Positions 31,234 through 34,011 of a DNA stretch of 64,000 bases are shown here, one piece after another. The DNA is taken from assembly GCA_938091745.1 (NCBI GenBank), contig CALLJK010000011.1, positions 1 through 64,000 of the forward strand, in the 5' to 3' direction. Every line of letters starts with the position of its first letter. Positions within the stretch are counted from its first letter, which is position 1. The notes beneath the pieces were generated by a model. It was not told the DNA's origin and searched no databases. It was given only the letters and a program-made list of their open reading frames with translations. The translations under genes were made by a program, and so were the position numbers. The stretch is from Candidatus Bipolaricaulota bacterium. Lineage in GTDB: Bacteria; Bipolaricaulota; Bipolaricaulia; RBG-16-55-9; DRXL01.

Positions 31234-31262
31234 TTGACTTTTTGGGGGAGTTGTGCTAGAAT
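31234..31262 (+). promoter_or_regulatory. Promoter of the riboswitch-controlled exopolysaccharide operon
   Basis: TTGACT (31234-31239), a 17-bp spacer and TAGAAT (31257-31262). Transcription would start near 31269, leaving a leader of about 220 nt that contains the c-di-GMP-I aptamer. Confidence 0.85.
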
Positions 31263-31292
31263 CACTTATAACCGAAAAACCTAGAGATGGGT

Positions 31293-31380
31293 CATCTCTG
31301 AAAAATGGCAAACCCATCGTGAGGTGGGGGCGCAAAGCTTCGGGTCTCTTGTAGTGTAGACGGCCGAGCTGCCAGAGATG
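31293..31380 (+). ncRNA. c-di-GMP-I (GEMM-I) riboswitch aptamer
   Basis: The aptamer follows the GEMM-I consensus closely. P1 is a perfect 8-bp stem (CATCTCTG 31293-31300 with CAGAGATG 31373-31380). It is followed by an A-rich joint, GGCAAACC, a 6-bp hairpin capped by the GNRA loop GTGA (CCCATC-GTGA-GGTGGG), GCGCAAAGC, a second arm with GGTCT...AGAC, and the closing GAGCTGCC. These are the ligand-binding and tetraloop/receptor features of the class. It lies between a strong promoter and genes for a processive glycosyltransferase and a deacetylase-like protein. Confidence 0.93.
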
Positions 31381-31383
31381 GAA

Positions 31384-31456
31384 GCTTAGGTTGTATGAGG
31401 CTATTAAGGGACTATTATTTCTTTTGGTCTCCATATAAGTCCTCAGTAACTTAAGC
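31384..31456 (+). promoter_or_regulatory. Candidate riboswitch expression platform
   Basis: 31384-31400 pairs with 31441-31456 (16 pairs, three G-U wobbles, one bulge), followed by ATTTATTTTG, so it could act as a weak terminator. An alternative exists: AACCTA (31278-31283) upstream of the aptamer can pair with TAGGTT (31387-31392) only when P1 is formed. AGAGATG (31283-31289) can instead trap the 5' strand of P1. Ligand binding would then break the terminator, making an ON switch. This switching scheme is inference. Confidence 0.45.
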
Positions 31457-31486
31457 ATTTATTTTGTAGAAGAGGAGGCGCTTGAG

Positions 31487-31813
31487 ATGCGCGGCACTGC
31501 CATGCCCGCTCCACAAGGGAGCTCCATCCCAAACGCCCATATATATTATGAAGCTTGTGAAGCCAAAAGTCAAGGGGAGCCCAGCGCTCGCGGGGCCGAA
31601 GAGCTGATCCAAGAGAACCAGCGCCTGCAAACCCTGCTCAGTGCTGTTGAGCACGAGCTGGCCCGACAGCGTGAGGCTCACGCTGCCCTCTGCCAGAAGC
31701 TCGAGCAGAAGAACCAGCAGCTGCAGCAGCAAATTTCTGCTATCGAGTCCGAGATCGCCAAACTCCAAAAAGAGAGCAAAGCCCTTCGTGCTGCTCTAGA
31801 AAAGCAGCATTAG
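31487..31813 (+). CDS. Coiled-coil reading frame, first part of a TAG-interrupted glycosyltransferase gene
   Basis: 108 codons from ATG 31487 (AGGAGG at 31472-31477). About residues 37-108 form a long heptad-patterned, Gln/Glu-rich coiled coil (ENQRLQTLLSAVEHELARQR, QKNQQLQQQISAIESEIAKL). It ends at TAG 31811-31813, but the same frame continues without another stop as the glycosyltransferase, which has no ATG, GTG or TTG of its own before its conserved core. So this is either a separate small protein or the N-terminal part of one interrupted polypeptide. First gene after the c-di-GMP riboswitch. Confidence 0.75.
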   Translation: MRGTAMPAPQGSSIPNAHIYYEACEAKSQGEPSARGAEELIQENQRLQTLLSAVEHELARQREAHAALCQKLEQKNQQLQQQISAIESEIAKLQKESKALRAALEKQH

Positions 31814-32902
31814 AGCAATCATTTCACGTTTGACTGGCAGGAAACCCATCTTCAAGCCCCAACAAAACTCAAGTGCGTCGCGATCATCCCCGCTCATAAC
31901 GAAGACCGCACCATCGCGCCGTGCATCGAGTCGCTCGCTCAGCAAACCTATCCCTTAGAGAAGATCATCGTGGTCAACGACGGCTCAACTGATTGGACAG
32001 AATTGGTCGTCAATCACTTACGCCAGAAATACCCTCACATCGAGTGCCTTACCAAGAGAGCAGACGGCTCGCTGCGCGCCGGCGCGATCAACTATGCCTT
32101 GAAGCATCTCTCTGAAAGCGAGTGCGATCTCGTGTTGATCGCCGACGCCGATGCCGTCTTCGCCCTGACGGTTGTCGAAGAAGCAGTCAAGCAGTTTGAG
32201 CGCGATACGGACGAAGAGATTGGGGGTATCTGTTCAGCTGTGGAGCTTGTGGGGCAGGGGCTGCTCCATCGTTTGCAGAAACTCGAGTACGGAGGCTTTA
32301 ACGCAGATCGTGTAGCGACCTGGCGCAATATTATGATCATTCATGGGCTGTGTGGGGTCTATCGGTTGAAAGCATTGCGCCAGGTGCGGGGCTACACCGT
32401 GGGCCATCTCATCGAAGACTATGATTTGACAGTTAAGCTCAAGAAAGCTGGATGGAAAACAGTTTTCAATCCCAAGATGCACGTGCAGACGCACAGCGTC
32501 CCAACGCTGCGCGATCTGGTGCGTCAGCGCCTGCGCTGGTATCGCGGGGGCGTGCAAGTTCTTTTAGATCATGGGGTCAATCGCTTCACCGCTCTTGATG
32601 CGTTCAATCACATTCATTTCCTAGCGCTCTTGGTGGTTATCGGGCTGATTGTCGGATTCTGGGTGCAGGCCTCCGGGGGCCGGTGGACTCCCCATCTGTG
32701 GTGGCATCCAATCCCCGTGATGGTCTTCTTTGTGGGCTGGCTCGGGAGCTTAGTGCAACTCAAGTGGGTCAAAGGCCTAGATTGGAAAGATGTGCTCCTG
32801 AGATTGGCCATTCTCCCTGAGCTGCTCTATTACACACTGCTTTCTGGCGTGCGTATATGGGCGTACTTCTTAGAGTTCGTCTCGGCAAAGAAAAGATGGT
32901 AG
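31814..32902 (+). CDS. Processive family 2 glycosyltransferase (PgaC/cellulose-synthase-like), no usual start codon
   Basis: 362 codons following an in-frame TAG. Counting from 31814: CVAIIPAHNE and VVNDGSTD (D56), D111-A-D113, the acceptor motif IED (200-202) and QRLRW (238-242) make the D, DxD, D, QxxRW set of processive beta-glycosyltransferases. After it come about three membrane helices (FLALLVVIGLIVGFW, VMVFFVGWLGSL, LLYYTLLSGVRIWAYF). Conserved sequence begins about 20 codons after the TAG, yet the first possible start is GTG 31970, beyond the UDP-binding strand. Product is probably a hexosamine or hexose polymer, inferred from the neighbouring deacetylase-like gene. Confidence 0.85.
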   Translation, partial: SNHFTFDWQETHLQAPTKLKCVAIIPAHNEDRTIAPCIESLAQQTYPLEKIIVVNDGSTDWTELVVNHLRQKYPHIECLTKRADGSLRAGAINYALKHLSESECDLVLIADADAVFALTVVEEAVKQFERDTDEEIGGICSAVELVGQGLLHRLQKLEYGGFNADRVATWRNIMIIHGLCGVYRLKALRQVRGYTVGHLIEDYDLTVKLKKAGWKTVFNPKMHVQTHSVPTLRDLVRQRLRWYRGGVQVLLDHGVNRFTALDAFNHIHFLALLVVIGLIVGFWVQASGGRWTPHLWWHPIPVMVFFVGWLGSLVQLKWVKGLDWKDVLLRLAILPELLYYTLLSGVRIWAYFLEFVSAKKRW

Positions 32903-32923
32903 AGCAAGAAGGAGGGTTCGAAG

Positions 32924-33103
32924 ATGTACTGCAACGTTCCAGCACTAGGGCTTGGGCAAGTCGGCGCTTTAGCAGCCATTGGGATCGGAGGGCTCTGGCT
33001 GCACGATAGCTTGCTCACGTTGTTGGCTATCTCAGCGTTCTTGGGAGCCCACTATCTGTATAGCTTATGGAAGGGCTCCAAAGAGCTTGGAGAGGAGGAG
33101 TAA
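32924..33103 (+). CDS. Small membrane protein, possible PgaD/IcaD-like synthase partner
   Basis: A 59-residue protein between the glycosyltransferase and the deacetylase-like gene, with a strong site (GAAGGAGGG) before ATG 32924 and a stop 2 bp before the next ATG. It has two hydrophobic segments (about residues 7-24 and 30-47), a short linker and a charged tail ending KELGEEE. Size, topology and position match the small subunits PgaD/IcaD that accompany PgaC/IcaA, but no sequence motif proves this. Confidence 0.65.
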   Translation: MYCNVPALGLGQVGALAAIGIGGLWLHDSLLTLLAISAFLGAHYLYSLWKGSKELGEEE

Positions 33104-33105
33104 CG

Positions 33106-34011
33106 ATGAGAGTAGTAAAAGCAGTCTTTCTCTTGCTTGGGGTATGGCTACTCTGTATCTCGAGTTCCATCTCTGTTCCTCATGGGCGTTGGTGTGGGCA
33201 TGTGCTAGCTCAGGGAGTTGATTCAGCATGGTATGGTCCCCCGGTCTTGACCACCGATCAGCTTATAGCCGGCTTCGATGAGCCAGGGTATCACTGGAGC
33301 AAGGATTGTCGACTCGTCGCGGCGATCTCGTTGCACTTTGGCGATTACGAAAAAGTCTTCACCGAGGCCTTTCCCATCTTACAAAGCTACCGGACGCCGG
33401 CAACCGCGTGGATTGTGACGGGTCGGATCGGGCAGCCAGGCTATATGACTCTCGATCAGATCAAAGAGCTAGCTAAACACACTTGGGAGATCGGCTCGCA
33501 TAGTGTGACACACCGACCTCTGATAGAGACCAAGAGCACTTACGGTACAGCACCAGGTCTCAACCCTAGTGAGATCCGGGCAGAGCTGGAAAATTCCAAG
33601 ATTATCCTAGAGCGCCAGGGATTCTCTGTGTCGGGATTTCTCAGCCCCTTTGGGCTCTATGATGATCTCGTGTTGAGCGAGATCCAGCGAGCATATAAAT
33701 ACCATCGGTCGCATGTGTTTAGTGTCATCAACTCACTGCCCCTGGCCGATCATGGCCCTCACAGCCGCTGGGAGCTCGCCTACTTCCAAGTGAAACAAGA
33801 CACGCCGCCGCTCGATGTGATTATTGAAATTGATCGGGTGAATCGTCGTGGGGGCTGGCTCATCCTCGATTTTCACGACATGGGCGATGATGATCCTTCG
33901 ATCTCGTATCCTCCGGAGGCATTAGAGAAGATCATACGTTTCATGCGAGCTGAGCTGAAGCTCTGTACCCTTGGGGAACTTCAGCAAGGGAGATGTCAAC
34001 CGCGCCGGTGA
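33106..34011 (+). CDS. Secreted polysaccharide deacetylase-like (NodB fold) protein
   Basis: 301 residues. Signal peptide about 1-36, ending VLAQG. The NodB-type core shows AISLHFGDYEKVF (where T-F-D-D-G is usual, leaving only D80), TAWIVTGRIGQPGYMTLDQIKELAKHTWEIGSHSVTHRPL (metal ligands H132 and H136) and GFLSPFGLYDD. Loss of the first Asp of the D-D pair could mean altered or absent catalysis. AGGAGG before ATG 33106 sets the start. In pga/ica operons the equivalent enzyme partly deacetylates the polymer for export and adhesion. Confidence 0.8.
   Translation: MRVVKAVFLLLGVWLLCISSSISVPHGRWCGHVLAQGVDSAWYGPPVLTTDQLIAGFDEPGYHWSKDCRLVAAISLHFGDYEKVFTEAFPILQSYRTPATAWIVTGRIGQPGYMTLDQIKELAKHTWEIGSHSVTHRPLIETKSTYGTAPGLNPSEIRAELENSKIILERQGFSVSGFLSPFGLYDDLVLSEIQRAYKYHRSHVFSVINSLPLADHGPHSRWELAYFQVKQDTPPLDVIIEIDRVNRRGGWLILDFHDMGDDDPSISYPPEALEKIIRFMRAELKLCTLGELQQGRCQPRR

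Follow-up and report, generated by a model that had tools for sequence, protein, structure and literature searches.

A probable class I c-di-GMP riboswitch ahead of a putative surface-polysaccharide operon from Candidatus Bipolaricaulota

Class I (GEMM-I) c-di-GMP riboswitches contact their ligand at positions 20, 47 and 92, as defined in PMC4744006, and a G20A change leads to cGAMP binding (PMC7288161). In C. difficile, riboswitches of this class, for example Cdi-1-3 before flgB, are OFF switches (PMC6200980). The CE4 motifs and their roles are defined in PMC5855634, and SwsB illustrates that a NodB protein devoid of the catalytic base can have another activity (PMC12444981). A literature search on riboswitches in Acetothermia found no paper, and, as far as titles tell, there is no obvious one on EPS operons with c-di-GMP riboswitches.

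The window considered here is the whole stretch of DNA that was analysed, 64,000 nucleotides from a Candidatus Bipolaricaulota bacterium. It very probably contains a cis-acting class I c-di-GMP riboswitch, located in the 5' leader of an operon for a surface polysaccharide, with genes for a coiled-coil-GT2 protein, a small membrane protein and an exported NodB-like protein. The features of the locus are the following:

31234 to 31262, + strand: sigma-70-type promoter, TTGACT-N17-TAGAAT, with TG before the -10 (10 of 12 consensus matches).
31283 to 31299, + strand: P0, a 7-bp hairpin, AGAGATG-GGT-CATCTCT (from folding).
31293 to 31380, + strand: c-di-GMP-I aptamer with an 8-bp P1 and G20/A47/C92 (from covariance models).
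31374 to 31464, + strand: putative expression platform, a hairpin between the aptamer and the Shine-Dalgarno site (from folding, z -2.84).
31472 to 31537, + strand: conserved start-codon element of 66 nt, made of the Shine-Dalgarno sequence GAGGAGG, the AUG and the first 17 codons (MRGTAMPAPQGSSIPNA), with a predicted three-way-junction fold.
31487 to 31810, + strand: N-terminal part (start peptide and coiled coil) of the coiled-coil-GT2 protein (from frame comparison).
31811 to 31813, + strand: in-frame TAG between coiled coil and GT2; GAG in the sister species G051, open in the sister species G053 and G050.
31814 to 32902, + strand: GT2 synthase domain with C-terminal hydrophobic segments (from Pfam; motifs DGSTD, DADA, EDYD and QRLRW).
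32924 to 33103, + strand: small membrane protein of 59 aa, conserved in sister species.
33106 to 34011, + strand: exported NodB-like (PF01522) protein with HFGDY as motif 1 (from Pfam).

The preliminary description of this DNA had claimed a full GEMM-I aptamer behind a near-consensus promoter, and had proposed an Infernal run with the Rfam c-di-GMP-I model. That run gave a match above gathering: RF03167 is found at 31298-31377 (+) with 65.8 bits (E 2.5e-13; gathering cut-off 59) and RF01051 at 31297-31376 with 65.4 bits (gathering 35). This is the sole Rfam match above gathering in the 64-kb window, and the RF03167 cut-off was reached in none of 14 control genomes. All the motifs quoted in the description are in the sequence, which contains GGCAAACC, the GUGA loop, GCGCAAAGC and GAGCTGCC, enclosed by the P1 formed between CATCTCTG (31293-31300) and CAGAGATG (31373-31380). 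The promoter also proved to be as announced, and TTGAC...TGCTATAAT-like promoters occur in the leaders of G053, G050, G055, G056 and other relatives.

That genes for a polysaccharide machinery follow on the same strand was correctly seen, but the coding start at 31487, the coiled coil and the in-frame TAG had been missed. The coding part begins after GAGGAGG with the start peptide, and the coiled-coil segment, 108 codons in all, lies 5' of GT2 in the same frame. The assignment of a family 2 glycosyltransferase is upheld by Pfam and by the motifs of processive enzymes (D, D(x)D, (E)D, QxxRW), present as DGSTD, DADA, EDYD and QRLRW and invariant in four species. The "pga/ica type" was not sustained: the GT2 scores 110.2 bits against the PgaC/IcaA poly-GlcNAc synthase model TIGR03937, whose equivalog cut-off is 422.3, so that a true PgaC/IcaA was rejected, and the NodB-like protein reaches 31 bits with the IcaB model (cut-off 248).

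The stop codon raises an alternative, namely that the window operon is a recent pseudogene, its synthase lost when GAG became TAG in the linker that joins the coiled coil to GT2. Indeed, coiled coil and GT2 form one open frame of 470-487 aa in the three sister species (G053, G050, G051), the matching place in G051 is GAG, and no ATG, GTG or TTG lies between the TAG and the first GT2 strand. However, the GT2 half is under purifying selection with no sign of relaxation (dN/dS of 0.078 against G053), and the stop may instead reflect an error in base calling or in the assembly of a metagenome bin, or be bypassed by readthrough or by a start of a non-standard kind. We regard the pseudogene as a substantial possibility, though the less probable side of the question. 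Since the GT2 half is so strongly constrained, the lesion, if real, is recent; because the TAG breaks the synthase frame, the window genome may have no working operon.

The small membrane protein gene is where the preliminary description had placed it. Its "deacetylase" of NodB type was half right. The protein is of NodB type, with a PF01522 score of 50.5 bits against a cut-off of 23.1, but when its motif 1 is aligned to the TFDD of 6dq3 and 3vus, HFGDY stands for TFDDG, and all four species have a Gly for the first Asp, the general base. The Asp-His-His metal triad is present, the GD of HFGDY and an HxxxH (HSVTH) being invariant in the four species. Because the general base is missing though the metal triad is kept, "deacetylase" should be read as the name of a fold only. 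An AlphaFold model of this protein (mean pLDDT 39.6) was discarded.

The start-codon element occurs once in each of eight genomes of a single family (the window genome, G000, with G049, G050, G051, G053, G054, G055 and G056). A threonine-synthase gene adjoins it in G000, G049, G050, G051, G053 and G055 and was not found in the upstream stretches examined for G056 and G054; gene order thus identifies the site as the same in six of the eight. In genus 1, the window and the sister species G053 and G051 have the promoter, the aptamer, the start element and the coiled-coil-GT2 operon. This fits the earlier claim of a polysaccharide-synthase operon with an aptamer in its leader, and the comparison of related leaders that had been suggested also revealed an exception, G050, which has the operon and the start element without the aptamer. 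G049 has no aptamer either; it keeps the start element, followed by a DUF2334 protein. In the aptamer's place (L059 2130-2215, reverse strand), G049 has an unrelated short sequence, with hairpins possible and no Rfam family at gathering.

The three genomes of genus 3 have the aptamer followed by a deacetylase-like DUF2334 protein, and in the two with enough sequence, G056 and G054, a different GT2 comes next (28% identity over 252 residues in G056). The two arrangements, coiled-coil-GT2 and DUF2334, share the same first codons, fused in frame. In total, six family loci including the window keep the aptamer ahead of a polysaccharide operon; the aptamer with its canonical contacts, a conserved promoter and position and a conserved operon are what the sequences show. 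Since the second genus has the same leader with DUF2334 and a different GT2, the link between leader and polysaccharide genes has outlived a replacement of the enzymes, and this is the best evidence from sequence that the control matters.

The region 31472-31537 is 83-100% identical across the eight genomes, and the leader just 5' and the codons just 3' of it have strongly diverged. Because the adjoining leader is not conserved, a recent transfer of the element is unlikely. Compared with G053, codons 1-17 contain one synonymous change (dS 0.08, where the rest of the gene has 0.8-1.0; binomial P about 0.002), and compared with G051 none. Folded alone, both genus types are predicted to adopt the same three-way junction, with the AUG within a GAUG/CAUC stem, and one pair of the third helix changes from C-G to G-C between them. 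The structure is plausible; the folds are not far below those of shuffled sequences (z -0.95 and -1.53) and the covariation amounts to one event. The element resembles no known Rfam family, the best matches being those expected by chance, and in the wider phylum it scores strongly in family f1 only, with seven weak matches (E 0.003-0.08).

We tentatively propose that these 66 nt are a new family-specific cis-regulatory RNA closing over the AUG, which together with promoter and aptamer would make up a control cassette with the first 17 codons as part of it, arriving polysaccharide machinery being fused in frame behind it. A conservation at the level of the protein, as a targeting peptide (MRGTAMPA...IPNA), would explain why the peptide stays in frame in two unrelated proteins. 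It is a rather unlikely explanation in view of the nearly frozen synonymous sites, and of four hairpin residues that differ between the genera with the stem pairs kept, one of them through a double change. By folding over the AUG, the start-codon element probably determines how well the first gene is translated, whether an aptamer is present or not.

In the riboswitch reading, the single GGDEF enzyme would make c-di-GMP and the single HD-GYP enzyme found would degrade it. The ligand would bind the nascent leader and stabilise P1, and the leader would then shift between two folds, changing the amount of operon mRNA or protein. Binding, switching and its direction, and the extracellular nature of the polymer are what we infer. 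P0 takes up the 5' strand of P1, so that the two helices are mutually exclusive, and the 3' strand of P1 is predicted to be able to pair with the U-rich 3' side of the putative platform hairpin. Two states of the window leader are predicted: one with P0 and a long hairpin, in which the P1 3' strand pairs with the U-rich 31457-31464, and one with P1 and a shorter hairpin, behind which AUUUAUUUUGU resembles the end of a terminator. Forming P1 has a computed cost of 1.9 kcal/mol. Such a two-state leader would be an OFF switch, like the class I riboswitches of C. difficile (PMC6200980). A comparable P0-like pairing of 5-6 bp was seen by eye in the G053 and G051 leaders. The sequence and details of the platform are not conserved in relatives, the U-rich end after the hairpin shows no conservation in G053 and G051, and no conserved intrinsic terminator was found in the family leaders compared. 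In thermodynamic folding of three sister species, forcing P1 brought little and inconsistent change in access to the Shine-Dalgarno and start sites; a conserved ON or OFF switch deduced from such folds was dropped because of this inconsistency. The chances that c-di-GMP turns the operon ON or OFF are about even.

The leader RNA could be intact and its regulation vestigial, promoter and start-codon element mainly running the operon while the aptamer is being lost. The aptamer is absent from two of five genus-level loci (G050 and G049), where promoter and start element are retained, and no expression platform is conserved. As G050, with the same operon, and G049 lack the aptamer, its control is dispensable. 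Yet the window, two of its sister species and three species of another genus share a well-kept aptamer core amid an otherwise heavily diverged leader, and vestigial regulation is improbable. For the riboswitch speak the covariance-model matches, the canonical contacts, the six loci, the link kept across gene replacement, the presence of enzymes for the ligand and the dN/dS of the GT2; against it are the G050 operon and G049 locus, the lack of a conserved switch in the predicted folds, the variable U-rich stretch and the TAG that interrupts the window synthase.

The preliminary description had also called the combination unusual. As regards the aptamer, this did not hold in a sample of 100 Bipolaricaulota genomes: 94 have c-di-GMP-I aptamers (491 in total, median 5, maximum 16) and 97 have GGDEF proteins. 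The aptamer is ubiquitous and expected in this phylum, where, in samples inspected by eye, many copies lie directly 5' of genes for exported proteins, among them peptidases of subtilisin type and small proteins with signal peptides. Among the phylum loci sampled, a polysaccharide operon follows the aptamer in the window's family only. The window genome has three c-di-GMP-I aptamers, one GGDEF protein, whose GGDEF and GHxxGD motifs are intact, and one HD-GYP protein in which HDIGK and GYP are present; no EAL or PilZ match was found in this genome. An "RNA-only output" of c-di-GMP is a possibility and is put no higher because the genome is 91.5% complete and the search covered GGDEF, HD-GYP, EAL and PilZ proteins.

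The other two aptamers of the genome lie in near-identical leaders (G000:C13:24329-24403, L007 6330-6404; G000:C2:7846-7920, L008 7846-7920), as if a leader had been duplicated; that on C13 precedes an M1 peptidase gene and that on C2 an ABC-transporter gene. In both, a short Cys-containing ORF (MRKAICAACEVSCPF...) has its ATG within the 3' strand of P1; this ORF resembles a truncated FNR/CRP N-terminus and has no Pfam match. An ATG inside the aptamer or at its 3' end is seen in several relatives (L017 1567, L030 1567, L172 84, L178 131), the ORFs beginning MAGLPK or MAAGLPK, and the start codon may join the ligand-bound fold. Also on C2, L008 11662-13761 (-) is a frame resembling the beta subunit of 2-oxoacid:ferredoxin oxidoreductase with, by eye, an apparent intein (CVLPGSLIHTN...VEDVHSYVSECATLHN|C).

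The ligand-contact bases G20, A47 and C92 are canonical in the window aptamer, in five family-level relatives and in the other two aptamers of the genome, and A20, the signature of cGAMP riboswitches (GEMM-Ib), is absent, the base there being G20. Since the contacts are canonical, this signature is absent and GGDEF and HD-GYP proteins are present, c-di-GMP is the expected ligand. A c-di-GMP-I-GGC variant or a GEMM-Ib with another ligand (e.g. cGAMP), suggested by RF03167 being the top-scoring family and by an A at position 20 in 6 of 57 distinct cores of phylum aptamers, is very improbable: RF03167 outscores RF01051 by just 0.4 bits, the RNA has the canonical GCAAAGC instead of the RF03167 consensus GCGAAGC and a G at position 20, and the genome's single GGDEF protein retains, in GHxxGD, the Asp that is generally absent from Hypr enzymes. 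We take "GGC" to denote these model bases (G at position 47), and the A at this position ruled out the variant-ligand reading of the top match. The cores with A20, the cGAMP-type signature, were found by pattern and include those of L039, L169, L200 and other Bipolaricaulota loci.

A surface polysaccharide would thus be under RNA-level control by c-di-GMP in a phylum where class I riboswitches are nearly universal. With no PilZ or EAL found, the circuit looks small and possibly mainly read by RNA. A leader that is kept while its cargo is exchanged constitutes a natural experiment, suggesting that selection held the control region and not the enzymes, and the two natural losses, in G050 and G049, allow a direct test of what the aptamer contributes. 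The aptamer itself is ordinary for the phylum; the conserved start-codon element and the exchanged cargo are the parts worth specialist attention.

Compared with the known c-di-GMP-I riboswitch (RF01051 / RF03167), the window has the same full aptamer, with tetraloop, P1-P3 and G20/A47/C92, and no aptamer difference was noted; here, however, the aptamer precedes a leader that is long and little conserved, together with a structured start-codon element of its own standing. The C. difficile riboswitches share the aptamer class and a place ahead of operons of envelope or surface genes, whereas in the window a polysaccharide synthase operon lies downstream and no conserved intrinsic terminator was found. 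With pgaABCD and icaADBC the window operon has in common a GT2 synthase, a NodB-fold protein and a small membrane protein. It departs from them in GT2 and NodB scores far below the PgaC/IcaA and IcaB cut-offs, in the coiled-coil fusion, in its order synthase-membrane-NodB and in the missing CE4 general base. SwsB-like proteins (PMC12444981) have the NodB fold with the motif-1 general base replaced and the motif-3 Arg missing, as in the window protein, but the latter has Gly and not Asn, is exported and is encoded beside a polysaccharide synthase, while SwsB belongs to spore cortex synthesis.
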